This document shows positions 5,200 through 54,871 of a stretch of 56,149 nt of DNA, piece after piece. The notes beneath the pieces are model-generated. The model had not been told where the DNA came from. It saw nothing but the letters and a program-made list of their open reading frames with translations, and made no database searches. The position numbers were made by a program, and so were the translations under genes. The DNA is from Pseudomonadales bacterium (GTDB taxonomy: Bacteria; Pseudomonadota; Gammaproteobacteria; Pseudomonadales; Pseudohongiellaceae). Each line of letters starts with the position of its first letter. The stretch's first letter is position 1. The stretch spans positions 1 through 56,149 of the forward strand of contig JAJDVS010000109.1 of assembly GCA_022825945.1 (NCBI GenBank). The letters are read 5' to 3'.

Positions 5200-8100
5200 T
5201 CAAGCAGGGGGGACTGGGACTAAATCGGCGGATGTAAGATCAACATCTCCCATGAGCTTGATGACATGGTCGGTCGTCATATCCAAGTCACCGTCGCCAT
5301 CGATATCGATGAACAGCCAAGTATTGTCAACAGACCCTCCACTATTCTCATGGACCACCGCCACCGAGTGCTTGTTGATGATACCGCCGAAGCCATCACC
5401 CGCTGTGGGAGTTGTAGTCTCGAAGAAGCCATTGGCTTGGTCCTTGACAAATTTCTCTAGCGTACCGGTTTCGAAAACCCAGTCCGCCGCAGTGACGTTG
5501 TCCGCCTCAGCATCCTTGATCAATCCCTGGAAGTTGTCGCGCAAAGCCTTCGGCAGCACGATGGAGTCATTACCAGCATCATCAAAATCGATGATGGTGT
5601 CCATGCCCATGGCAACTCCTTTATTGAAACTCAACTGCGAATCGGAAACGGCCTTGATGATGAACATGTCGTCGCCATCGCCGCCAATCAAGGTGTCGCC
5701 ACCCGCGCCGCCGGTCAATTCATCGTCACCGGCGCCGCCATTCAGCGTGTCCGCGCCGTCGTTGCCTTCGATCTCGTCGGCGCGTCCACCGCCAGTGAGC
5801 ATGTCCATGCCGCTGCCGCCCACCAAATCCAGGTCGCCGAGGGCATTGGACAAGGAGCTTGAACCGTTGTCTCGATCAGGATCTGTGCCGTCGAAAATCA
5901 CACCGCCGGTGTTATCGCTGGCATCGATCAGGTCCAGTTCGCCAAGGGCGCTCGCAGTGGCGTTGGAATCGATCTCGATCACAAGCATCGCGTTTCCGCT
6001 GACGTAGATGTCCTCTATCTTCGCGCTTGACTCCGCATCCAGCGTCAACATGTTCTGATAGTTGGCCGCTCCGGGACGGTTCGTCGCGGGAGATGTCTTC
6101 GAGCCGCCAGCCATGGCGCTTGAGTCGATATTGAGCGCTTCGATTTCGCCGTCGGTCTTAAGCATCAAGCTCACTTCACCCATGGTGCCGTCGTCGGATT
6201 TCGTATCACTGTCGCCACCAATGGCCAGCAAATTGACATCGAGCTCGCCGCTGTATCGGACGCGGGTCTCTGCCGGCATCATATGGACGATGTCGGCCAT
6301 GGTAGCCTCCTCCATGCCTTTCGTGCCATGCACGGTGATTCCCATGCCGTCCGCCATGTTCTTCAGCGTCACTTGTGCTTTTGTGCCGCCTCGGGCAACC
6401 ACGGTGCCGACGCCAAGACGCGCAATGTCATACTCCGCCTCGGCGCTGCCGCCAACATCCAGAATCTCGAAGTTCGAGAAGATGGATTTGGTGGTGGCGC
6501 CGTCCTTGTAGCCCATGTCCTGGGCGGTCAACTTCAACGTGTCCATGCCGTCGCCGCCGTCCACGCGGCTCTTTTCGCTGCCGCCATTGTCGCCGTGGAA
6601 GGTGTCGTCCCCGGCACCCAGGTCCACCATGAGGCCGGCGCCCCGATGCGCTCCCATGACGGTGACCATGTCGTCGCCGCCGCCGGAACTGACGCTCGCG
6701 AGCTTGGGGGAGGCGGAACTGGTCAACATGACCTTGTCGCCTCCATCGCCGGTCATGACGGACGCCAGCGCGGCGCCGCCCGCGGTGATCGTGTTGGCGC
6801 CCATGTTTCCGCTTGCGTCGATCGTGGCCAACTTGGCCATTCCGGACGCATCCGTGGTGAATTTTCCATCGCCGCTCACGGTGAGCATGGCCAGCGAGTT
6901 CGAAGCGGTCGTATTGTCGAACTTGTAGACATCCAGCACCAGGTTATTAGCGCCGAGGTCCACGGTGAGCATCTTCACTTCGTCCGACGCCAGGTGGAAA
7001 TAGGAGTTTCCGACGACTGCAATATCGATGTTTTCCGCGGAACCGGCGCCCTTGATGCACAGTTTGCCAGCCAGCTTCGTAGTGCCGTCGGTATTGAAGG
7101 AGCCGTAATGGTTGACGGTAATCGACAAGTCTTCCGGCATGTCCTTTCCGTCAGCCATCTTGGACTCATTCTGGATCAGCACAACCGCCTGGGTGTTGTG
7201 CAACTGGACGGTTTCGATCGCGTCCGAATGCACCTTGAGGGTGGGCCCGCCGCCGGAAGGCGTGCCGGGCGTTCCCGCAACGTAACCGTCCGCCATCATG
7301 ATGTCTCTGGTCACGCGAATCTGGCCTGTGGTCAACTCAACAGCAACTGCGGTTTCATCACCAGTCGTGTCAGGGTCATCAGCGATCGCGGGCAAGCCTT
7401 CCTGCTTCGCGATGTAGTACGTGTTTAGCGCCGCCTCAGTGGCAGTGACCGGATTGAATTGACGGGCTGCAGAATCCAACACCACATACTGCACCGCAGT
7501 CTCGGAAGGTGAGACACCTTGGTTGCCGGTGGGTATGTCCGCTTCCTTCACCGCCGACGTGTCGGGGTCTGTCCCTCCCGTAGTCGTTACCGCATCCCGG
7601 GCCAAACCGTCAACACTGACGCTGGTAACGGTTTGGGACTGCCCGCCTCCGGCATTCTTGCCGATGGTGACGCTCATGCCGCCCTTGACCATGACCGACC
7701 CGGTATGGCCGCCGGAACCGATATGCACCATTGAGCCCATGCCAGCTTCGATATCGACAGCGCCTCCGGCGCCGACGATTTCCACATTGCCGTGGAAAGT
7801 CCTGTCGGAACTGACCATGGCGCCATCCACCACGACCTCGACCGAGGTTTCGTCATCCCGGCCGAATCGTTCCAGGGAAACGCTTTCAAGCCCTTCCCAA
7901 TCGCTCAAATCGGCGTCCACGCCGCCCACGGTGTTGATGACAAGGTTCTCGACATTGCGGATGTCCTCGGTGCCGAGGATAAGTTCGCTACCGGTGTTGA
8001 CGCCAAACACATGGATGGTGTCGTTGCCCGCGCCGCCGTCGATGCTGTCGAAGGAACTCAGGGTTTCATTGAAGAGACCGTCAGCCCCCTGCTCCGGCTG

Positions 8101-8733
8101 GGCGACAAAGGTGTCATCGCCATCGCCGCCATTGAAAACATCGATCGTCGGCGTGAGGACATAACGCATGCCCATCATCGGGTCTTCCATGACGGGATTG
8201 TCAATGGCGTCGATGGCCATGGCGACGCTGTCGGCGTCGGCGGTGACGCCCTCCAGCACACTGGCGGAGTGCTCCGCCATGCGGGCGTTCAGCGTGTAGT
8301 GTTCGGCCACTTCGATCTGGTTGTGGAAGGCCATCGCCGCCATGCCGAGATCGCCGTAGGCCGGATGGTCCATGCCCGTCATGGCGATGTCGTGCAGGGC
8401 GTTTACCACCGCCAGCGCGAGCGCGCCGCGGGTCATGCCGTCGTTCAGCATGCCGACGACGATGTCTTCGGCCCCGGTCATCACTTCGTCGGACACATTG
8501 CCGCCGAGCACGTTGCCGAGAAAGTCCTCCGCGAACTCTTCGGGGGTGAGGAAGGCGGGATAGGTCGCCTGGAAGGCGTCGGAACCCGCTATGTGGTTCG
8601 CGATGTCTTCCAGCGACATGCCGTCTTCGTGGGCGGCCACCCATTCGTTGAGCAGATCGGTGCCCGGGGCGCTTCCCAGCATCGCCACCGACAGCCCGAT
8701 CAGGCCGGTTCTGGTTTCAGCAGTTACTGCCAT
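5200..8733 (-). CDS. RTX-type secreted, probably S-layer-like protein
   Basis: A 1177-residue acidic protein without an N-terminal signal peptide. Residues 25-115 (NEWVAAHEDGMSLEDIANHI onward) resemble DUF4214-like heads of type I-secreted surface proteins. A long beta-rich, Asp/Gly/Thr-rich middle follows, with an early GGAGNDTIHV repeat near residue 230. The main calcium-binding RTX block (GGAGDDELTGGAGGDTLIGG type nonapeptides) spans about 975-1028. The last 150 residues form the likely uncleaved type I secretion signal region. The start has AAGGAGTAACGAAAATG. No ABC exporter or TolC gene is in the window, so secretion genes must be elsewhere. The architecture suggests an abundant surface-layer protein; an adhesin is the alternative. 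Confidence 0.85.
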   Translation of the reverse strand: MAVTAETRTGLIGLSVAMLGSAPGTDLLNEWVAAHEDGMSLEDIANHIAGSDAFQATYPAFLTPEEFAEDFLGNVLGGNVSDEVMTGAEDIVVGMLNDGMTRGALALAVVNALHDIAMTGMDHPAYGDLGMAAMAFHNQIEVAEHYTLNARMAEHSASVLEGVTADADSVAMAIDAIDNPVMEDPMMGMRYVLTPTIDVFNGGDGDDTFVAQPEQGADGLFNETLSSFDSIDGGAGNDTIHVFGVNTGSELILGTEDIRNVENLVINTVGGVDADLSDWEGLESVSLERFGRDDETSVEVVVDGAMVSSDRTFHGNVEIVGAGGAVDIEAGMGSMVHIGSGGHTGSVMVKGGMSVTIGKNAGGGQSQTVTSVSVDGLARDAVTTTGGTDPDTSAVKEADIPTGNQGVSPSETAVQYVVLDSAARQFNPVTATEAALNTYYIAKQEGLPAIADDPDTTGDETAVAVELTTGQIRVTRDIMMADGYVAGTPGTPSGGGPTLKVHSDAIETVQLHNTQAVVLIQNESKMADGKDMPEDLSITVNHYGSFNTDGTTKLAGKLCIKGAGSAENIDIAVVGNSYFHLASDEVKMLTVDLGANNLVLDVYKFDNTTASNSLAMLTVSGDGKFTTDASGMAKLATIDASGNMGANTITAGGAALASVMTGDGGDKVMLTSSASPKLASVSSGGGDDMVTVMGAHRGAGLMVDLGAGDDTFHGDNGGSEKSRVDGGDGMDTLKLTAQDMGYKDGATTKSIFSNFEILDVGGSAEAEYDIARLGVGTVVARGGTKAQVTLKNMADGMGITVHGTKGMEEATMADIVHMMPAETRVRYSGELDVNLLAIGGDSDTKSDDGTMGEVSLMLKTDGEIEALNIDSSAMAGGSKTSPATNRPGAANYQNMLTLDAESSAKIEDIYVSGNAMLVIEIDSNATASALGELDLIDASDNTGGVIFDGTDPDRDNGSSSLSNALGDLDLVGGSGMDMLTGGGRADEIEGNDGADTLNGGAGDDELTGGAGGDTLIGGDGDDMFIIKAVSDSQLSFNKGVAMGMDTIIDFDDAGNDSIVLPKALRDNFQGLIKDAEADNVTAADWVFETGTLEKFVKDQANGFFETTTPTAGDGFGGIINKHSVAVVHENSGGSVDNTWLFIDIDGDGDLDMTTDHVIKLMGDVDLTSADLVPVPPA

Positions 8734-17822: not shown

Positions 17823-18161
17823 ATGACCAGTGACAACAACTCCGTTCTGCTGACCATCCTCAACAAGAGCTATTGGGTGAACTGCCCGCCCGAGGAAAGA
17901 AGCTCCCTGCTGGAATCCGCCCGCTATCTCGATGAGCGCATGTACCGGATTCAACGCCGGGTCAGCAAGCTCGACCGCGAACAGATCGCCGTCATGGTGG
18001 CGCTCAACATCACCCACGAACTGCTCAGGAAGCCCGCAGCCGAAGGCGGCAACACCCTGCTCGACGACGTCCGCCTCGCCCAGCTCGAGGACAAACTCAA
18101 TCACGCTCTCGGCAAGGAAGAAGCGACTCCCGATTCGCCCCAACCACCCCGCGCTCCGTAA
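17823..18161 (+). CDS. zapA: Cell division protein ZapA
   Basis: A 112-residue protein. The N-terminal domain (VLLTILNKSYWVNCPPEERS, then LESARYLDERM) and the C-terminal helix (DREQIAVMVALNITHELLRK) are typical of ZapA, which binds FtsZ and cross-links protofilaments. Its last 65 bp overlap the 3' end of mtnA on the other strand. The 6S RNA gene that often follows zapA in gammaproteobacteria has no room here. Confidence 0.88.
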   Translation: MTSDNNSVLLTILNKSYWVNCPPEERSSLLESARYLDERMYRIQRRVSKLDREQIAVMVALNITHELLRKPAAEGGNTLLDDVRLAQLEDKLNHALGKEEATPDSPQPPRAP

Positions 18162-19185
18162 TGATGCCGCTGACCAGCCGGGCCGGGGTGATATCGAAGG
18201 CGAAATTGCGGATGGCGCTCGACTCGGGATACTGGCGGACCTCGGCCTCTTCGCCATCGGCGCCGATGCCGCTGGCCATGCTCACTTCCCCGGCGCCGCG
18301 CTCTTCGATGGGGATGGGCGCCGCCATGGAAGACCAGTCGAAATCGATGGTGGACAGCGGCAGGGCGGCATAAAAAGGCACCTGGTTGTCTTTTGCCGCC
18401 AGGGCGAGCGGATAGGTGCCGATCTTGTTGCAGACATCCCCCGCCGCGCTGACCCGGTCGCTGCCGGTAATGCAGACATCCGCCATTCCCCGTGACATGA
18501 CATGACCCGCGGCGCTGTCCACAATCAGGCTGTGCTCGACGCCGGCCTGGCGCAATTCCCAGCAGGTGAGCGCCGCGCCCTGGTTGCGCGGCCGGGTTTC
18601 ATCTACCCAGACATGTAGCGGTATGCCTTTTGCCGCCGCCTTGAAAATCACCGCCAACGCAGTGCCCCAGTCCACAGCGGCCAAGGCGCCGGCATTGCAA
18701 TGAGTCAGCACCTGCAATGGGTGTCCCCGCCTGGTTTTGCCGCGCCAGAGTCTTTCCAGCAACACACTGCCGTGTTCGCCGATGGCTTCGCAGCAGGCGC
18801 TGTCGGCGTCCGCAAGCTTGTTGGCGAATCGCAATGCCCGAGTGGCAATCGAATCAGCGGGCTCCCGGGCAAGTGTCCTGGCGGCGCGGTCCAGAGCCCA
18901 GCGCAGATTGACCGCCGTGGGCCGGATGCCTTGCAACTGCGCCAGGGCATCCGCGAGACCCGCCGGATTCTCCCGCAGGGCGAGATACACGCCAAAGGCC
19001 GCGGTGACGCCAATCAGCGGCGCGCCGCGAACCCGCATGACGCGGATGGCCTCACAGGCTTCGGCCAAAGTCGCAAGGGTGCGGATTTCGAAATGATGCG
19101 GCAGCCGGGTCTGGTCGATGATGCGCACCTGGTCAGTCGCCGGCTCGTGCCAGATGCTGCGATATTCCTTGCCTTCCACGCGCAT
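18097..19185 (-). CDS. mtnA: S-methyl-5-thioribose-1-phosphate isomerase
   Basis: A 362-residue aldose-ketose isomerase of the eIF2B-like fold. Diagnostic stretches are MRVRGAPLIGVTAAFGVYLA, LTHCNAGALAAVDWGTALAV, HVWVDETRPRNQGAALTCWE and VCITGSDRVSAAGDVCNKIG (catalytic Cys in the THCNAG-type region and Asp in TGSDR). It converts 5-methylthioribose-1-P to 5-methylthioribulose-1-P in methionine salvage. It starts 5 bp after the stop of the aldolase/dehydrogenase gene, so the two are co-transcribed. No mtnB, mtnC or mtnD lies in the window. Its 3' end overlaps zapA antisense. Confidence 0.92.
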   Translation of the reverse strand: MRVEGKEYRSIWHEPATDQVRIIDQTRLPHHFEIRTLATLAEACEAIRVMRVRGAPLIGVTAAFGVYLALRENPAGLADALAQLQGIRPTAVNLRWALDRAARTLAREPADSIATRALRFANKLADADSACCEAIGEHGSVLLERLWRGKTRRGHPLQVLTHCNAGALAAVDWGTALAVIFKAAAKGIPLHVWVDETRPRNQGAALTCWELRQAGVEHSLIVDSAAGHVMSRGMADVCITGSDRVSAAGDVCNKIGTYPLALAAKDNQVPFYAALPLSTIDFDWSSMAAPIPIEERGAGEVSMASGIGADGEEAEVRQYPESSAIRNFAFDITPARLVSGIITERGVVGANRESLLPCRERD

Positions 19186-19190
19186 GGGAA

Positions 19191-21182
19191 CTACACCACC
19201 CTATCATTGCCGCCATCCACCGGAAGCTGGGCGCCGGTGGTGCGGCTGAAGGCGGTGCCGGCAAGGCCGGCGATGGCGGTGGCCACATGACTGCTTTTCA
19301 CTTCCACCCCAAGCAGGTTCCCGGAGCGGTACCGGCTGACTTCCATCCCGTGGTGGCGGGCCCGCTCCCGCAGCACTTCCCTGGTCCAGATACCCGTATC
19401 GAAGACCGCATCGGGATGCACAAGATTCACCCGGATGCCCTTGGCCGCCGCCTCCAGGGCGGCAACCCGGGCCATTTGCGTCAGGCCGGCCTTCGCCGCC
19501 GAGTACGCCGCCGCGCCCGGCCCCGGAGCGGCCACGTTTTTTGACGCCACAAAGACCACGGCGGGGTCAAAACCCGTCTCCAGCAGGGGCAGGCAGGCCC
19601 GCAGCACTTTCATGTGGGAGCTGAGGTTGAGGTCCAGCGATTGTTCCCAGTGCGCATCCGGCATTTCCCCCAGGCTTGCGCTCGCGGGGAAATTGCCGGC
19701 ATTGCTCACCAGTATGTCGAGCCCACCGAAATGCAGCACGCCCTGCGCAAGGGCCGCATCAATCGCATCCGCGTCGGTCACGTCACAGCGCAGGGCCAAT
19801 ACTTCGCGGCTGTCCCATGGTCCCCGCCAGGCTTCGCCTTCCGCTATGTCCAGGGCGATCACTACCGCGCCCCGGCGTCGCAGTTCCTCCACCGTGGCGC
19901 GGCCAATGCCCGAAGCCGCTCCGGTGACCAAAGCGACCTTGCCCCGCATTTCCGGCGCGCTGCCGGCGGCGGCGAGTTTGGCCTGCTCAAGTTCCCAGTA
20001 TTCCACTTCGAACAGCTTGTCCCGCGGCAGGGCGCGCCAGCCGCCCATGGCCTCGGCAAGCCGGATGGCCCGGATCGTGTGGCGGGTAATGTCTGCGACG
20101 ATTTCCAGCCGCTTGCCGCCGGGGGCCAGATGCACTACGCCTTTCTCGCGCCACACGCCGTAGCGCGGGGCGGGATCGAGGCATTGGTGATGGTCCTGGG
20201 CGTGGTCGCGAAAATAGGCCTGGTATTCCCTGGCGAAAGCGCGCAGCCCCGGCAGGGGGTCCGCATCGAAAACGGCGCCGAATGGTTTGGCGTGGATAGT
20301 ATGGTCCGGCGTCAGCGGCCCGCGCCGGATCAGTTCGCCGCAGTCATCGAGCGCGGCGAACGCAAGGGCCTCGGGGCTGCGGTCAAGCCGGGCAAGCATG
20401 GGGGCGCCGGACAATTCGCCCGCCGCCTTGCGCAATCCGGCGAGCGCAATGGCTGACCCGGCGTCCGGAGAAGCTGGCGCCGCAATCGCCGGCTGGAACA
20501 CTTTCGTCCCGGCCCGGCGCCCGAGTTCGCCCTCGGCGCGGTCCACGAGTTCCACCATGGACTCATAGCTGTCCCGGGCTTGCTCGTGAAAACTGAACAC
20601 GCCGTGTTGCAGCAAAACGATGCCTCGCAGGGCATTCCAGTCCACGTCCCGGGCAACGGCGGCGATCTGTCGCGCCAGAACGAAGCCGGGCATGACATAA
20701 GGCAGCACCAGCACTTCGTCGCCGTACAGCTCGCGCAGGATTTCCGCGCCATGGGGAGAGTTGCTGAGCGTGACCACGGCATCGGCGTGGGTGTGGTCTA
20801 CATGGCGAAAGGGAATCAGGGCGTGCAGAATCGCTTCCACCGAGGGGTTCGGCGCGGCCGGCTCGAGGGTCGCGAGCCTGAGCTGGCGCATCATCTCGCT
20901 GTCGCCGAGATGCTCCAGCGTGGCAAGACGCAGGAGATATTCGAGATCGACGGGCGCAAATCCCGCCGGGCCGATGCTTTTCAGATCCCAGCCGGAACCC
21001 TTGACGAACAGCACCCTGCGCGTATCGCCGAACAGGTCGCCGAGTTCTCCCTTGAGGGAGGTATTGCCGCCGCCATGGAGCACGAGGGCGGGGTCCTGGC
21101 CGAGCAGGCGGGAGGAATAGGCGCGCAATTCGAGATCGGTGGCGCAGGCGCGGGCTTCAGTATCGTTCCAGCGGCTTCGCAT
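19191..21182 (-). CDS. Bifunctional class II aldolase / short-chain dehydrogenase
   Basis: A 663-residue fusion. Residues 1-410 form a class II aldolase/adducin domain: LHGGGNTSLKG binds phosphate, HVDHTHADAVV and LLQHGVFSFHEQARDSYESM carry the metal histidines. Residues 415-660 form a Rossmann SDR: GKVALVTGAASGIGRATVEE is the dinucleotide site, and AAYSAAKAG holds the YxxxK catalytic pair. The same layout is known from rhamnulose-1-P aldolase/lactaldehyde dehydrogenase (RhaD) and YuxG-type proteins. Here there are no rhamnose genes; instead mtnA follows after 5 bp. An inferred role is cleavage of 5-methylthioribulose-1-P or 5-deoxyribulose-1-P to DHAP and an aldehyde, which the SDR domain would then oxidise or reduce. 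Confidence 0.85.
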   Translation of the reverse strand: MRSRWNDTEARACATDLELRAYSSRLLGQDPALVLHGGGNTSLKGELGDLFGDTRRVLFVKGSGWDLKSIGPAGFAPVDLEYLLRLATLEHLGDSEMMRQLRLATLEPAAPNPSVEAILHALIPFRHVDHTHADAVVTLSNSPHGAEILRELYGDEVLVLPYVMPGFVLARQIAAVARDVDWNALRGIVLLQHGVFSFHEQARDSYESMVELVDRAEGELGRRAGTKVFQPAIAAPASPDAGSAIALAGLRKAAGELSGAPMLARLDRSPEALAFAALDDCGELIRRGPLTPDHTIHAKPFGAVFDADPLPGLRAFAREYQAYFRDHAQDHHQCLDPAPRYGVWREKGVVHLAPGGKRLEIVADITRHTIRAIRLAEAMGGWRALPRDKLFEVEYWELEQAKLAAAGSAPEMRGKVALVTGAASGIGRATVEELRRRGAVVIALDIAEGEAWRGPWDSREVLALRCDVTDADAIDAALAQGVLHFGGLDILVSNAGNFPASASLGEMPDAHWEQSLDLNLSSHMKVLRACLPLLETGFDPAVVFVASKNVAAPGPGAAAYSAAKAGLTQMARVAALEAAAKGIRVNLVHPDAVFDTGIWTREVLRERARHHGMEVSRYRSGNLLGVEVKSSHVATAIAGLAGTAFSRTTGAQLPVDGGNDRVV

Positions 21183-21702: not shown

Positions 21703-21828
21703 TACGGTTTCCTGCCACGCCAACAATCAGCCGGAGTATAGCAGCCGGGGATTCCAATGCAACGCTCGCTCACTGATGATTTTCCATCGCGGCAATTCTC
21801 GTTGTGGCAATGGCGCGCCCACATCAGT

Positions 21829-21866
21829 CATCCTGCGCGCAGTCGCAGGATCTCATTGGGTGGTTG
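21829..21866. repeat. Single REP-like unit
   Basis: CATCCTGCGCGCAGTCGCAGGATCTCATTGGG is a small palindrome of the same design as the TTCTGCG repeats at 4704-5092, with CCTGCG in place of TCTGCG. It lies just upstream of the gene at 21918. Confidence 0.55.
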
Positions 21867-21917
21867 CCATCCGGCTGCAATTTTCGTACTTTTCAGTTTT
21901 TACCTCAGGGGGGAAAC

Positions 21918-24107
21918 ATGATCCACGTAACAAGACTGAAACCACTTCTTGCAATCCTGTCTCTTGTGGCGGCCGCAATAGCCGTGTTGCCCGCCGCGGC
22001 GCAGTCGACCGCCCAGGGCGTGATCGAGGGCGTGGTCCAGAGCCCCGCAGGCGCGGAAGCCGGAGTCTGGGTCATCGCGGAGACCGACGACACGCCGACC
22101 CATTTCGTGAAGATCGTCGTGACCGACGACGAAGGCCGGTTTGTCCTGCCGGAACTGCCGGACGCGCTGTTCAGCGTATGGGTGCGGGGTTACGGCCTGG
22201 TGGATTCCGATCCGGTGTTCCTGCGACCGGGAGCGTCCGGCGTCAGCCTGAAAACCTTCCAGGCGGGAGACCCGCTGCTCGCGGCCCAGGTGTATCCGGG
22301 CAACTACTGGTATTCCCTGCTTGAAGTGCCCGGACACGAGGAGTTTCCCGGCACCGGCCCGGACGGCAACGGCATTTCCCCGTTCATGGGCAGCCAGGAT
22401 CACTGGATCGACACGACCAAGCAAAGGTGTCAGCTATGCCACCAGCTCGGCAACAAGGCGACCCGCACCCTGGATCACCTGAGTCATCTCGATTTCGAAT
22501 CCAGCGTCGAAGCATGGCGCTATCGCACGGCGATGGGCATCCGGGGGCCGCTCATGGCGGCCATATCCGGTTTCTTCGGGCCCCGCGGCATGGAAATGTA
22601 TGCGGACTGGACCGATCGCATCGCCGCGGGAGAAATCCCGCCGACGCCGCCGCGCCCCGAAGGCATCGAGCGGAATATCGTCATTACCCAATGGGACTGG
22701 GGCAACGAGTCCGCATTCATCCACGATGAAATCACCACCGACAAGCGCGACCCCACGGTGAACGCCGGCGGTCTGGTCTATGGCGTCGACGCCTCGTTCG
22801 GCGCCCTGCTTGAACTCGACGTGGAAACCCACGAGTGGCGGGAGCTGGAAATTCCGGTTCGCGACAACCCCGACAATCCCGCCGTGACCCGTTTCCTGCA
22901 GGAGTTCCCGGTGCCATCCGCCTATTACGGCGACGAGGCGCTGTGGCAGCGCCCCGCCGACCCCCACAATCCGATGTTCGACGAACTCGGCCGGGTATGG
23001 ATGACCACCAAGGTGAGAGGCGATATCCTGCCCGAATGGTGCCGGCCGGGGTCGGACAACCCCTTTGTGGAGTATTACCCCACCCGGGCGAGCACTCGCC
23101 AGGCTTCGTATTACGATCCGGCCACGGAAGATTTCGGGCTTATCGATACCTGCTTTACCACCCATCACCTGCAATTCGACTGGACCGAGGATCGCACCCT
23201 CTATTTCAGCACCCTCGCCGACGTCATCGGCTGGGTGAACACCCGGGAATTCGATAGGACCGGCGACGAGCAGGCGACCCAGGGCTGGTGCCCCATGGTG
23301 GTGGACACCAACGGCGACGGCCGCATCACCAAACCCTGGAACCCGCCCGTCGGACCCTTGTTCGACCCGGGCGCGGGCGGCGATTTCGATCCGGCTCTCG
23401 ACACCAGGATGGAGCCGGGACTGAACTACGGCATCATCGTGAATCCGGTGGACAATGTGGTCTGGGGCGCCGGCGAGGAGTTTCCCGGGCGCATCTATCG
23501 CATGGACATCGGCGACAATCCGCCGGAAACCTGCATTACGGAAGTCTACGAAGTGCCGGTGATCGACGGCGAGTTGCAGGGATTCGGCCCCCGGGGCATC
23601 GACGCCGACAGGAACGGCGTCATCTGGACCGCGCTGTCCGGCAGCAGCCACCTGGCCAGTTTCGACCGTAGCAAGTGCGAAGTGCTGAACGGACCCAGCG
23701 TGGTCACTTCCCAGCATTGCCCCGAAGGCTGGACCCTGTACGAGGCGCCCGGCCCCAACATGAAGGGCACCGACGTGAAAGCCGACTTCCACTATTACAA
23801 CTGGGTCGATAACTTCAACACCCTGGGCTTGGGCGAGAACATTCCCATCGCGACGGGTTCCGGTTCCGATTCCCTCAAGGTGCTGGATCCGGATACCGGA
23901 GAATGGATCGTCATGCGCGTGCCCTATCCGTTGGGATTCTATTCCCGCGGTCTCGACGGACGCATCGACGATCCGGACGCCGGCTGGAAAGGCCGCGCCG
24001 TATGGGCCAATTACGGCACCAATTTCAACTGGCATACCGAGGGCGGCAAGGGAACCCAGAGCAAGATGGTCAAGTTTCAGATCAGACCCGACCCGCTCGC
24101 GCGGTAA
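21918..24107 (+). CDS. Exported beta-propeller protein with CxxCH haem motif
   Basis: A 729-residue protein. The start at 21918 has CAGGGGGGAAAC upstream and opens a clear signal peptide (residues 1-29, ending LPAAAQS). Residues 32-110 form a carboxypeptidase-regulatory-like beta sandwich (GVIEGVVQSPAGAEAGVWVI). RCQLCHQLGN at 170-179 is a c-type haem site. The rest is propeller-like repeats as in Vgb-type lyases (GLVYGVDASFGALLELDVET, GRVWMTT, GIDADRNGVIWTALSGSSHL, GSDSLKVLDPDTGEWIVMRV). A periplasmic or surface redox/binding role is inferred; the substrate is unknown. The next gene starts 12 bp on. Confidence 0.7.
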   Translation: MIHVTRLKPLLAILSLVAAAIAVLPAAAQSTAQGVIEGVVQSPAGAEAGVWVIAETDDTPTHFVKIVVTDDEGRFVLPELPDALFSVWVRGYGLVDSDPVFLRPGASGVSLKTFQAGDPLLAAQVYPGNYWYSLLEVPGHEEFPGTGPDGNGISPFMGSQDHWIDTTKQRCQLCHQLGNKATRTLDHLSHLDFESSVEAWRYRTAMGIRGPLMAAISGFFGPRGMEMYADWTDRIAAGEIPPTPPRPEGIERNIVITQWDWGNESAFIHDEITTDKRDPTVNAGGLVYGVDASFGALLELDVETHEWRELEIPVRDNPDNPAVTRFLQEFPVPSAYYGDEALWQRPADPHNPMFDELGRVWMTTKVRGDILPEWCRPGSDNPFVEYYPTRASTRQASYYDPATEDFGLIDTCFTTHHLQFDWTEDRTLYFSTLADVIGWVNTREFDRTGDEQATQGWCPMVVDTNGDGRITKPWNPPVGPLFDPGAGGDFDPALDTRMEPGLNYGIIVNPVDNVVWGAGEEFPGRIYRMDIGDNPPETCITEVYEVPVIDGELQGFGPRGIDADRNGVIWTALSGSSHLASFDRSKCEVLNGPSVVTSQHCPEGWTLYEAPGPNMKGTDVKADFHYYNWVDNFNTLGLGENIPIATGSGSDSLKVLDPDTGEWIVMRVPYPLGFYSRGLDGRIDDPDAGWKGRAVWANYGTNFNWHTEGGKGTQSKMVKFQIRPDPLAR

Positions 24108-24119
24108 CGGGCGATAGCC

Positions 24120-25157
24120 ATGGAAAAGTCAGGCTCGGGCGCCGGGATTCACTTGACTGGAATCCTGGCGCTTCTCGCCTTGCCGCTTATGCCGGCCGCG
24201 CATGGCGCCGAGCCCGGCTGGGCCGTCCCCCGCACGGAGTACGGCCACCCCGACTTGCAGGGGCTCTGGACCAATTCGACGCAAACCCCCTTCCTGCGCC
24301 CCAGGGAACTGGGCAACCGCCAGGCCTATTCCGAGGAAGAAGCCCTGGAACTGGAGCGCGAAGTCCGCGAAGCGGAAGCCCGGCGGGCGCTGCCCAGCGA
24401 CCCGGACCGGGCGCCGCCTCCCGCGGGAGGATTCATCAGCCAGCGGTCCGACGAAAATTTCGACATCGCCCCGATCGGGATAGCCCGCATCGACGGCGAA
24501 TATCGAACTTCCATCGTTATCGACCCGCCCGATGGCCGCCTGCCGCCGCGGCTCGATTTCAAGGACATCTTCGAGCGCTGGAGCGAGCAGGGATTCGGCC
24601 CTTCCGACGGACCTGAAATGAGATCGATCCAGGACCGCTGCCTGGCGCCCCTGGTGCAGTTGCCCCTGCTTTATACTTTCGGCGCCGTGAACGCCGCGGA
24701 CGGAGACAATCCTTCGCGCAATATCCAGATTGTGCAAAACGAAAACTATGTCGTCGTCCTGTGGGAGTACTTCAGCGCCGTGCGCATTATCCGGCTGGCG
24801 GAAAACCACCTGGACAATTTCGGCCCCAAATGGCGGGGAGATTCCATCGCCCGTTACGAAGGAGACTCGCTCGTGGTGCATACCCGGAATTTCCGGCTGG
24901 AGCAGACCAATCCCTTCCTCAGGGCGTCCGAACAGTTCGAGATCACGGAAACCTATACGCCGGTATCGCCCGACGAAATGGTTTTCAGATTCACGATCTC
25001 CGACCCCATGGCCTACCCGCAATCCATCACCGGCGAGATTTCACTGCAAAGAATGGCGCCTGAACACAAACTCTACGAATTCGCCTGCCACGAAGGCAAC
25101 TACTCCTTTTCCTCCATACTGAGAGCCGCCCGCATGGAAGACGCCGGCGCGTTGTGA
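24120..25157 (+). CDS. Secreted protein of unknown function
   Basis: A 345-residue protein with a signal peptide (LTGILALLALPLMPAAHGAE). The opening HPDLQGLWTNSTQTPFLRPR, then MRSIQDRCLAPLVQLPLLYT and NIQIVQNENYVVVLWEYFSA, matches a family of secreted hypothetical proteins I know from environmental proteobacteria and acidobacteria, with no assigned reaction. It follows the CxxCH propeller gene by 12 bp on the same strand, so both probably act together outside the inner membrane. Confidence 0.65.
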   Translation: MEKSGSGAGIHLTGILALLALPLMPAAHGAEPGWAVPRTEYGHPDLQGLWTNSTQTPFLRPRELGNRQAYSEEEALELEREVREAEARRALPSDPDRAPPPAGGFISQRSDENFDIAPIGIARIDGEYRTSIVIDPPDGRLPPRLDFKDIFERWSEQGFGPSDGPEMRSIQDRCLAPLVQLPLLYTFGAVNAADGDNPSRNIQIVQNENYVVVLWEYFSAVRIIRLAENHLDNFGPKWRGDSIARYEGDSLVVHTRNFRLEQTNPFLRASEQFEITETYTPVSPDEMVFRFTISDPMAYPQSITGEISLQRMAPEHKLYEFACHEGNYSFSSILRAARMEDAGAL

Positions 25158-37061: not shown

Positions 37062-38486
<1,425 letters not shown>

Positions 38487-52942: not shown

Positions 52943-54871
52943 ATGACCTCGAATCTGTCCAGCAACGCCGGAGCCGGCCAGACCGTCCTGGAGGCCGACC
53001 CCGTCACGCGCGCCGGGCCGGACGACGACCTGCTTACCGCCGGGCTCGGCCTTGAGGGCTTGCGCAATCCGGTATTGCCGCCGGGCGCAAGCGCCCGGGC
53101 GGCGGCGGTCCACAAGAATTTCCGCGAAGTGGTTGACATCGCCCCGGGAGGCGTTTTCGACAACCTCATCGCCGGCGGCGCGGACGGCCTGAAGGTATCG
53201 GGGCGGGATTACGCCGCACTCATTCGCATTCCGGGCGCCTCCCAGCCGATCGGCGCGAACTTGCTCGTACCCGACCATTTCGACTGGGGCCGCCCGGTCA
53301 TGGTGGTGGCGCCTTCGCCGGGTTCGCGCGGCGTTTCCGGCGCCATCGGCGATATCGGTTCCTGGGCGCTATCGCGGGGCTGCGCGCTGGTTCTCACCGA
53401 CAAGGGAACCGGCGGTGTGCAGATCCTGGCCGACGACACCTGCTACGGCACGGACCTCGAACCCGCGCCCGCAAGCGATACGCCAACGGTGTTCCGCCTG
53501 CGGTCCACCGCGGCGCTGCGAAAGTTCCGCAAGGCAAATCCGCAAGCCATCGCCCTGAAACACGCCCATTCCGGGGACAATGTGGAAGCATTATGGCCCG
53601 AAGCCGTGCTGGCGGCCGCGCGATTCGGGCTCGATACCTTAAGGCGGCGCGAGGGAAGCGGTCAGCCGCCATCGGCGCTGGGCAGGATCAAGGTGATTGC
53701 CGCCGGCTTGTCGAACGGCGGCGGCGCCGTGCTGCGCGCGGCGGAGAACGACAAGGGCGGCGTCCTCGACGGGGTCGTCGCGGTGGAGCCCAATATCACG
53801 CCGCGGGAAGGCCACGGCGGAAAGGTCCGGTTCGGCGCCGGACCGAGCGCATCGCCCGGCAGGCGTCTTGTGGATTACGCCACGGAGATGAATCTTCTGC
53901 TGCCCTCGGCGCTCAGGGCGCCGGAGCTCGCCGACATGCCTTTTGCCGAAGTGACGGCGATGGCCGAAGCGCGTCAGGCCGCATGGGCGGACGGGCTGGC
54001 AAAAGCGGGCCTCGTCGAGGGCGGCAATACGGCGGCGCGGGCCAGCGACGCGTTGCGAAGGATCAGGGCGCTGGGCTTCGGCGAAGACTCCGAAGCGCTC
54101 CTTCCCATGATGGCGGTCATGCACATCTGGCCGGCCGTCAGCCACACTTTCGTCAGCGCCCTCGGCCGGCTTCCGGTCGAAGCCGACCCGCTAGGCGCCT
54201 GCACGGCCTTTGCCAGGACCGATGCGCTTGGGTTGACCCTGGAGGAACTTGCGGACCCCACACCCGAACAGAAGCGTTTGTTCGGCGCGTTGAGCGGCGG
54301 CCTTTCGCCCGGGGGCGGTGCGTACACGATCTACGCGAACCGCGATATTCATCCGAGTCTGGAGGACGCCCTCGACCTGCGGCGGATGGCCATGGGCGAA
54401 GGGCGGAACGGCGGTCGCGTGCGCCGGGGATCGGAAGAGGTTCTCGCAAGCGCGCGAGGGCGGGGCAAACCGACGATCGTTCTTCACGGCAGATGCGACT
54501 CCCTCATCAGCGTGCAGCACAGTTCCCGGGCCTATGTCGCCGCGGCAATGGCGTCGGGTTCCGACACGCGGCAATTGCGATACTACGAGCACGACAGCGG
54601 CCAGCATTTCGAATCGCTCCTCGGCGTACCGGGAATCTCCCAACGATACAACCCGCTGCTGCCGTCGTTCTTTCAGGCGCTGGATCTGATGCGGGAGCGC
54701 GTCTTCGGCGGCGCCGAATTTCCTCCGAGCCAGGTGCTGCGTCGCTCCCTGCCGGACGAAACCGGCGAGAACGGCCTCGCGGTGCGCGGACGGCTGTCCG
54801 GTGAAATCCTCGCGCGGCCCGGAGACAATGAAATTGTGCGTTCCGGGAATTCGCTCGGAATCCCGGCGTAA
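52943..54871 (+). CDS. D-(-)-3-hydroxybutyrate oligomer hydrolase
   Basis: A 642-residue protein. The family is recognised from DDDLLTAGLGLEGLRNPVLP, GRPVMVVAPSPGSRGVSGAI, LTDKGTGGV, the nucleophile region KVIAAGLSNGGGAVLRAAEN (Ser about 256), and HGRCDSLISVQHSSRAYVAA near the C-terminus. It hydrolyses 3-hydroxybutyrate dimers and oligomers from PHB breakdown. Known members carry a signal peptide; this frame starts MTSNLSSNAGAGQ with none. The ATG lies 2 bp after a MITE and lacks a Shine-Dalgarno of its own, so the element may have replaced the original 5' end. Confidence 0.82.
   Translation: MTSNLSSNAGAGQTVLEADPVTRAGPDDDLLTAGLGLEGLRNPVLPPGASARAAAVHKNFREVVDIAPGGVFDNLIAGGADGLKVSGRDYAALIRIPGASQPIGANLLVPDHFDWGRPVMVVAPSPGSRGVSGAIGDIGSWALSRGCALVLTDKGTGGVQILADDTCYGTDLEPAPASDTPTVFRLRSTAALRKFRKANPQAIALKHAHSGDNVEALWPEAVLAAARFGLDTLRRREGSGQPPSALGRIKVIAAGLSNGGGAVLRAAENDKGGVLDGVVAVEPNITPREGHGGKVRFGAGPSASPGRRLVDYATEMNLLLPSALRAPELADMPFAEVTAMAEARQAAWADGLAKAGLVEGGNTAARASDALRRIRALGFGEDSEALLPMMAVMHIWPAVSHTFVSALGRLPVEADPLGACTAFARTDALGLTLEELADPTPEQKRLFGALSGGLSPGGGAYTIYANRDIHPSLEDALDLRRMAMGEGRNGGRVRRGSEEVLASARGRGKPTIVLHGRCDSLISVQHSSRAYVAAAMASGSDTRQLRYYEHDSGQHFESLLGVPGISQRYNPLLPSFFQALDLMRERVFGGAEFPPSQVLRRSLPDETGENGLAVRGRLSGEILARPGDNEIVRSGNSLGIPA

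Follow-up and report, generated by a model that had tools for sequence, protein, structure and literature searches.

A candidate one-protein DHAP shunt: an mtnA-linked class II aldolase/short-chain dehydrogenase fusion in a Pseudohongiellaceae bacterium

In a 56,149-nucleotide stretch from a Pseudomonadales bacterium of the family Pseudohongiellaceae (assembly GCA_022825945.1, contig JAJDVS010000109.1), referred to here as the window, the gene mtnA, encoding S-methyl-5-thioribose-1-phosphate isomerase, follows a gene for a class II aldolase fused to a short-chain dehydrogenase (SDR), both on the minus strand with 5 bp between the stop of the fusion and the start of mtnA. Judged from sequence and gene content, the pair probably forms the lower half of a dihydroxyacetone phosphate (DHAP) shunt for 5'-deoxynucleoside waste, and the recurrence of the pairing in distant bacteria points to a single-protein form of a clean-up route already known. 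A first-pass annotation of the window had described the two genes 5 bp apart, which the open reading frames (ORFs) and matches to TIGR00512, Aldolase_II and adh_short bear out, and had proposed a fused DHAP shunt, which has gained support from the placement of the fusion outside the rhamnose enzymes RhaEW, from the failure to find mtnB and mtnD in the genome, from the pairing in several phyla and from two fuller gene clusters in relatives.

Assignment of the isomerase and the fusion

The MtnA protein scores 363.7 bits against TIGR00512, passing the cut-off of 279, matches PF01008, and aligns end to end with the solved MtnA structures 1t9k and 2yrf. The THCNAG and G(S)DR (here GSDR) stretches, which we take to carry the catalytic Cys and Asp, are retained in this alignment. 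In the fusion, Pfam places Aldolase_II at residues 23-217 and adh_short at residues 415-599. Its best NCBIfam model is NF006196 (PRK08324.2-4), named "bifunctional aldolase/short-chain dehydrogenase" and giving no substrate, which it matches from position 1 to 657 of 657 with 810.3 bits, slightly below the curated cut-off of 831, relatives L037 and L040 scoring 898 and 866 bits. Because it shares a tree with these two relatives despite this score, the fusion is treated as a divergent relative of NF006196 and not as an equivalog.

A structure predicted from 43 sequences (mean predicted local distance difference test score, pLDDT, 90.6; predicted template modelling score 0.89), which superseded a model from eight sequences with regions of low quality (mean pLDDT 73.4), agrees with the sequence assignment. 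Foldseek returned the Thermoplasma structure 3m4r, a class II aldolase domain that has not been characterised, as nearest to the aldolase domain (TM-score 0.93 over the target) and many SDR structures for the C-terminal domain, with no solved two-domain structure among the matches listed. The connecting region, residues 226-410, is without a Pfam match, although it shows conserved alignment blocks and is helical and confidently modelled. Residues E116, H130, H132 and H193 of the aldolase domain, presumably the acid/base and zinc ligands as in FucA-type aldolases, are invariant across all 82 fusion rows, as are the glycines of the SDR domain together with D445, N519, S547, Y560 and K564; the residues presumed to act in catalysis are retained. 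The second SDR strand ends in Asp, which suggests NAD(H) as the cofactor.

The two-domain architecture is identical to that of RhaEW, a rhamnulose-1-phosphate aldolase/lactaldehyde dehydrogenase, and the fusion does match the corresponding model, TIGR02632, with 390.3 bits. It is nevertheless extremely improbable that the fusion is itself a RhaEW, since this score lies below the cut-off of 567.75, four RhaEW proteins of the same order score 931.7-1044, and the identity to the fusion is 33-37% by alignment, with 31-36% in another comparison. The four RhaEW rows form their own side of the tree with support of 100, so that the phylogeny called for by the first-pass annotation places the window fusion outside their branch, and they differ consistently from the fusion rows at 34 positions, including D at 116 and L at 519. 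Rhamnose isomerase adjoins both RhaEW loci tested, whereas the neighbours of the fusion are mtnA and genes for ZapA and an ExbD/TolR-like protein. FGGY kinases gave no match in the source genome, compared with four in each of the rhamnose-type control genomes G048 and G065. A rhamnose role was rejected on these grounds of score, tree, neighbours and kinases. The parallel drawn earlier with the rhamnose fusion stands for the shared architecture and fails for the name RhaD, the characterised enzyme being RhaEW (PMC3870299).

A second alternative, scarcely less improbable, is that the aldolase domain has the dehydratase activity of MtnB, an enzyme that belongs to the same superfamily (PMC6302742) and acts downstream of MtnA. 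The MtnB model TIGR03328 (cut-off 137.05) gave no match in the genome at E 0.001, no mtnD was found there, and a fused dehydrogenase fits an aldehyde product. This role was likewise rejected, with no TIGR03328 match and Aldolase_II present in the fusion only.

Gene content, linkage and co-occurrence

The source genome (G000; 2.64 Mb in 113 contigs, 96.28% complete) has the fusion as its sole Aldolase_II match. Profile searches returned no match for mtnD (acireductone dioxygenase, ARD), and mtnB and FGGY kinases were not found either; mtnC and rhaA were never searched for. The absence of mtnB and mtnD noted earlier for the window accordingly extends to the genome, as does that of rhamnose genes with respect to FGGY kinases, and a full mtnBCD set with a rhamnose pathway, which would have spoken against a shunt, did not appear among the parts tested (mtnB, mtnD and FGGY kinases). 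The sole PNP_UDP_1 gene (G000:C62, about 97298-98044) encodes a methylthioinosine phosphorylase (NF006599, 296.3 bits over 223). Two APH-family genes were detected, one AmgK-like but below cut-off and one without an NCBIfam match at 1e-10, and no MtnK is therefore recognised; the suggested search for mtnK or mtnP yielded a phosphorylase and no kinase of the MtnK type. The gene complement of a DHAP shunt is in this sense present, with MtnA and a class II aldolase adjacent and a phosphorylase as the source of aldose-1-phosphate. Within the family, genome G044 carries mtnA, mtnB and mtnD and no such fusion at the search depth used, and within the genus, genome G081 carries the fusion and mtnA side by side without mtnD. 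The closest named relative of the fusion among the matches listed comes from an uncultured Pseudohongiella (71% identity by tblastn, 76% in the alignment).

Within the order, 8 of 95 genomes, the source genome included, carry a full-length fusion at an identity of at least 48%, and four carry the RhaEW type. A scan of named genomes found at least 589 relatives, the best 80 of which were analysed for linkage. The flanking DNA, in some cases cut by a contig end, contained mtnA at 28 of these loci, a lower bound because many of the 52 others sit on short contigs. Twenty linked loci are gammaproteobacterial, with the fusion followed by mtnA in syntenic surroundings. The other eight belong to SAR324 (L097), Bacteroidota (L101 and L104, near-identical), Marinimicrobia (L108), Planctomycetota (L120), Saprospiraceae (L122), Sulfurimonas (L123) and Neomarinimicrobiota (L126), and in these mtnA precedes the fusion, follows it, converges on it or is separated from it by one gene.

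On a quick tree of 86 rows, the four RhaEW included (LG+G4, with SH-aLRT as the sole support measure and 29 of 83 inner branches left open), the linked or unlinked label requires at least eight changes, and the window fusion sits in a group of 20 rows, all linked, with support of 99. Under a generous chance expectation of 20 kb in 2 Mb, and with L101 and L104 counted once, 7 of 59 loci outside the gammaproteobacterial linked set are linked, against 0.59 expected. Given 28 linked loci among 80 and at least eight label changes, the pairing exceeds chance. Separately, locus L084, on a contig labelled as a Klebsiella pneumoniae metagenome-assembled genome, groups tightly with uncultured Pseudohongiella-like Gammaproteobacteria, and its label looks wrong.

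Further neighbours are those expected for a route from 5'-methylthioadenosine (MTA) or 5'-deoxyadenosine. The Sulfurimonas locus L123 is ordered mtnK (TIGR01767, 489 bits, cut-off 275), mtnA, a NIT/PAS/HD sensor gene and the fusion. The Neomarinimicrobiota locus L126 comprises a phosphorylase that matches the MTAP/MTIP superfamily at scores under the curated cut-offs, an amidohydrolase, the fusion and mtnA. Among the best models for the amidohydrolase are those of 5'-deoxyadenosine and MTA deaminases, none of which reaches its curated cut-off. At L091, an adenosine deaminase gene comes after the fusion.

Co-occurrence was assessed in 232 evenly drawn genomes of the class, each at least 90% complete, of which 147 have mtnA and 41 have the fusion (40 over cut-off and that of the window). 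The isomerase gene is present in 39 of the 41 fusion genomes and in 108 of the 191 others (Fisher p 5e-7), and with one genome per family the figures are 23 of 24 and 65 of 119 (p 6e-5).

A hand-picked set was also compiled, in which 50 of the 80 named loci were joined by 8 fusion genomes and 22 control genomes from the order, with duplicates dropped (G125 = G011, G138 = G059) and sub-cut-off ARD and mtnB matches left out. Its 56 distinct fusion genomes include 52 with mtnA, 6 with mtnD and 7 with mtnB, and mtnD exceeds its cut-off in 6 of the 52 mtnA-bearing fusion genomes versus 9 of 14 mtnA-bearing controls. The idea that the fusion simply replaces methionine salvage, suggested by this set, found no support in the even class sample. 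Such a replacement may hold for the mtnA-linked genomes only, which come from few lineages and in which mtnD and mtnB were each over cut-off in 0 of 17.

Proposed route and its alternatives

From the observed genes, domains, conserved residues, linkage, co-occurrence and gene content, we infer the substrate, reaction, redox direction and transfer between domains of the fusion as follows. The methylthioinosine phosphorylase, whose gene lies in another part of the genome, would release 5-methylthioribose-1-phosphate, or alternatively 5-deoxyribose-1-phosphate would be released from 5'-deoxyadenosine after deamination. The aldose-1-phosphate would be isomerised by MtnA to the ribulose-1-phosphate form, the aldolase domain would cleave 5-methylthio- or 5-deoxyribulose-1-phosphate, yielding DHAP together with either 2-(methylthio)acetaldehyde or acetaldehyde, and the aldehyde would then be oxidised or reduced by the dehydrogenase domain of the same polypeptide. 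Since no other exit was found in the source genome, both the methylthio and the deoxy sugar are likely substrates there, whereas in relatives with mtnB and mtnD the fusion would mainly handle 5-deoxyribulose-1-phosphate, with MtnA shared with methionine salvage.

The DHAP shunt of Rhodospirillum rubrum, Rhodopseudomonas palustris and some Escherichia coli comprises MtnP or MtnN plus MtnK, followed by MtnA and the aldolase Ald2. The proposed route resembles it in the succession of MtnA and a class II aldolase, in the phosphorylase found in the genome and in the expected products, DHAP and (methylthio)acetaldehyde, and differs in that the aldolase here comes from a different lineage and carries a dehydrogenase on the same chain. 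For R. palustris, a putative alcohol dehydrogenase that is a protein of its own has been assigned to the aldehyde step (PMC5893883). The pairing of an isomerase with a class II aldolase is also found in the DrdA/DrdI/DrdK salvage of 5-deoxyribose in Bacillus thuringiensis, a route that can share an MtnA-like isomerase with methionine salvage (PMC6079011); there, the aldolase is unfused and a kinase lies in the cluster, whereas no kinase lies by the window pair.

For the dehydrogenase, RhaEW offers a precedent in which one chain performs aldol cleavage and NAD+ oxidation: it oxidises the aldehyde with NAD+, is inactive with NADH, gives no products without NAD+ and needs its dehydrogenase for cleavage (PMC3870299). 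By this analogy, NAD+-dependent oxidation to the acid is favoured over reduction, and in our judgement the aldehyde is somewhat more probably oxidised than reduced by the fusion. The most specific form of the proposal, in which a single polypeptide cleaves both ribulose-1-phosphates and passes the aldehyde directly to its NAD-dependent domain to give methylthioacetate or acetate and DHAP, is put forward tentatively, at slightly less than even confidence.

Several observations weigh against the assignment of the pair to a DHAP shunt. The characterised shunts reduce the aldehyde and do not oxidise it (PMC5893883, PMC10986504). No mtnA was seen in the flanking DNA of 52 of the 80 named loci, many on short contigs, in most of the class the fusion and mtnA are not neighbours, and because of their shared gene order the gammaproteobacterial linkages count as few events. 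Four of the 56 fusion genomes of the hand-picked set gave no mtnA match. Three of these four (L076, L106 and L111) are members of a Bacteroidota group with the fusion beside UPF0261, PEP_hydrolase and creatininase genes, and in an Arcobacteraceae genome (L110:10001-13542) it is followed by a gene matching the autoinducer-2 kinase model (865 bits, cut-off 528), with a cupin further on. These neighbours imply that the fusion family may serve other sugars, and it probably has more than one job. In the class sample, mtnD occurs in 17 of the 39 mtnA-bearing fusion genomes and in 31 of the 108 mtnA-bearing genomes without the fusion (p 0.11), and given this lack of anticorrelation the fusion is more than a plain substitute for methionine salvage.

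The last result favours a narrower reading, which we consider unlikely though worth serious attention, namely that the fusion acts only on 5-deoxyribulose-1-phosphate from radical-SAM waste, as an analogue of DrdA with its own acetaldehyde dehydrogenase, and that MTA takes another route or none. Where mtnD accompanies the fusion and mtnA, MTA has a route of its own, and organisms sharing one isomerase between both routes have been described (PMC6079011). In the source genome, by contrast, neither mtnB nor mtnD was found and the sole phosphorylase is of the methylthioinosine type, so that 5-methylthioribulose-1-phosphate would otherwise be without a known exit; furthermore, known Ald2 enzymes accept both substrates (PMC10986504).

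It is also conceivable, although improbable, that the fusion serves another sugar pathway and stands beside mtnA only through inherited gene order. The synteny of the whole gammaproteobacterial neighbourhood would fit such an explanation, as would the family members that adjoin UPF0261/PEP_hydrolase/creatininase genes or the autoinducer-2 kinase gene, but the linkage appears again in other phyla, where the gene order differs, and at the level of whole genomes mtnA accompanies the fusion even when the two lie apart.

As an observation apart, ten Bacteroidota loci (L071, L076, L089, L092, L098, L106, L107, L111, L116 and L122) have the fusion near a PEP_hydrolase-like TIM barrel gene and UPF0261, four of them also with creatininase. 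This cluster looks undescribed, and L122 combines it with mtnA.

The aldehyde enzyme of the DHAP shunt is still termed putative, and many bacteria without full methionine salvage have no assigned fate for MTA and 5'-deoxyadenosine (PMC5893883, PMC6302742). The mtnA-tied fusion is a ready candidate for both. Were the one-polypeptide form of the proposal true, the fusion would fill the unassigned aldehyde step, would be the main exit of MTA where mtnB and mtnD are missing, and would represent a shunt enzyme spread over many phyla and present in about 18% (41/232) of the class sample, and an NCBIfam group whose present name is purely domain-based would gain a function. The first-pass annotation knew of no description of an mtnA-linked aldolase/SDR fusion, and searches of the open-access literature returned no paper describing one in its title or the opening of its abstract, which is not proof of absence; the available parts of PMC6302742, PMC6079011, PMC10986504, PMC12632272, PMC5893883 and PMC3870299 do not mention one.

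The locus and other features of the window

The coordinates of both genes and of the regions of the fusion are given in Table 1. The next gene upstream of the fusion, on the same strand, is the ExbD/TolR-like gene, and zapA lies beyond mtnA on the opposite strand. An Rfam scan of the window gave 0 matches at the gathering threshold, and a promoter and terminator scan around the pair gave counts near the shuffled means and was not used.

Table 1. Coordinates of the mtnA-fusion locus in the window
Feature	Position	Strand	Basis
mtnA, S-methyl-5-thioribose-1-phosphate isomerase	18097..19185	-	362 aa ORF; TIGR00512, PF01008, alignment with 1t9k and 2yrf
Class II aldolase/SDR fusion	19191..21182	-	663 aa ORF; NF006196 full length
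Fusion: aldolase domain, about aa 1-225	20508..21182	-	PF00596; 3m4r nearest solved structure
Fusion: connecting region, about aa 226-410	19953..20507	-	Conserved alignment blocks, helical, confidently modelled
Fusion: SDR domain, about aa 411-663	19194..19952	-	PF00106/PF13561; glycine-rich motif; Foldseek SDR matches

Elsewhere in the window, two long ORFs on the plus strand (21804-24107 and 24120-25157) are without a Pfam or NCBIfam match at E 0.001, the second having a 34% relative elsewhere in its own genome (L046:3641-4687). A V/A-type ATPase subunit (37077-38486, plus strand; PF00006, PF22919) is encoded in this gammaproteobacterium-like genome, together with a 3HB-oligomer hydrolase (52943-54871, plus strand; PF10605) and a large protein that matches an RTX-type repeat (5200-8733, minus strand).

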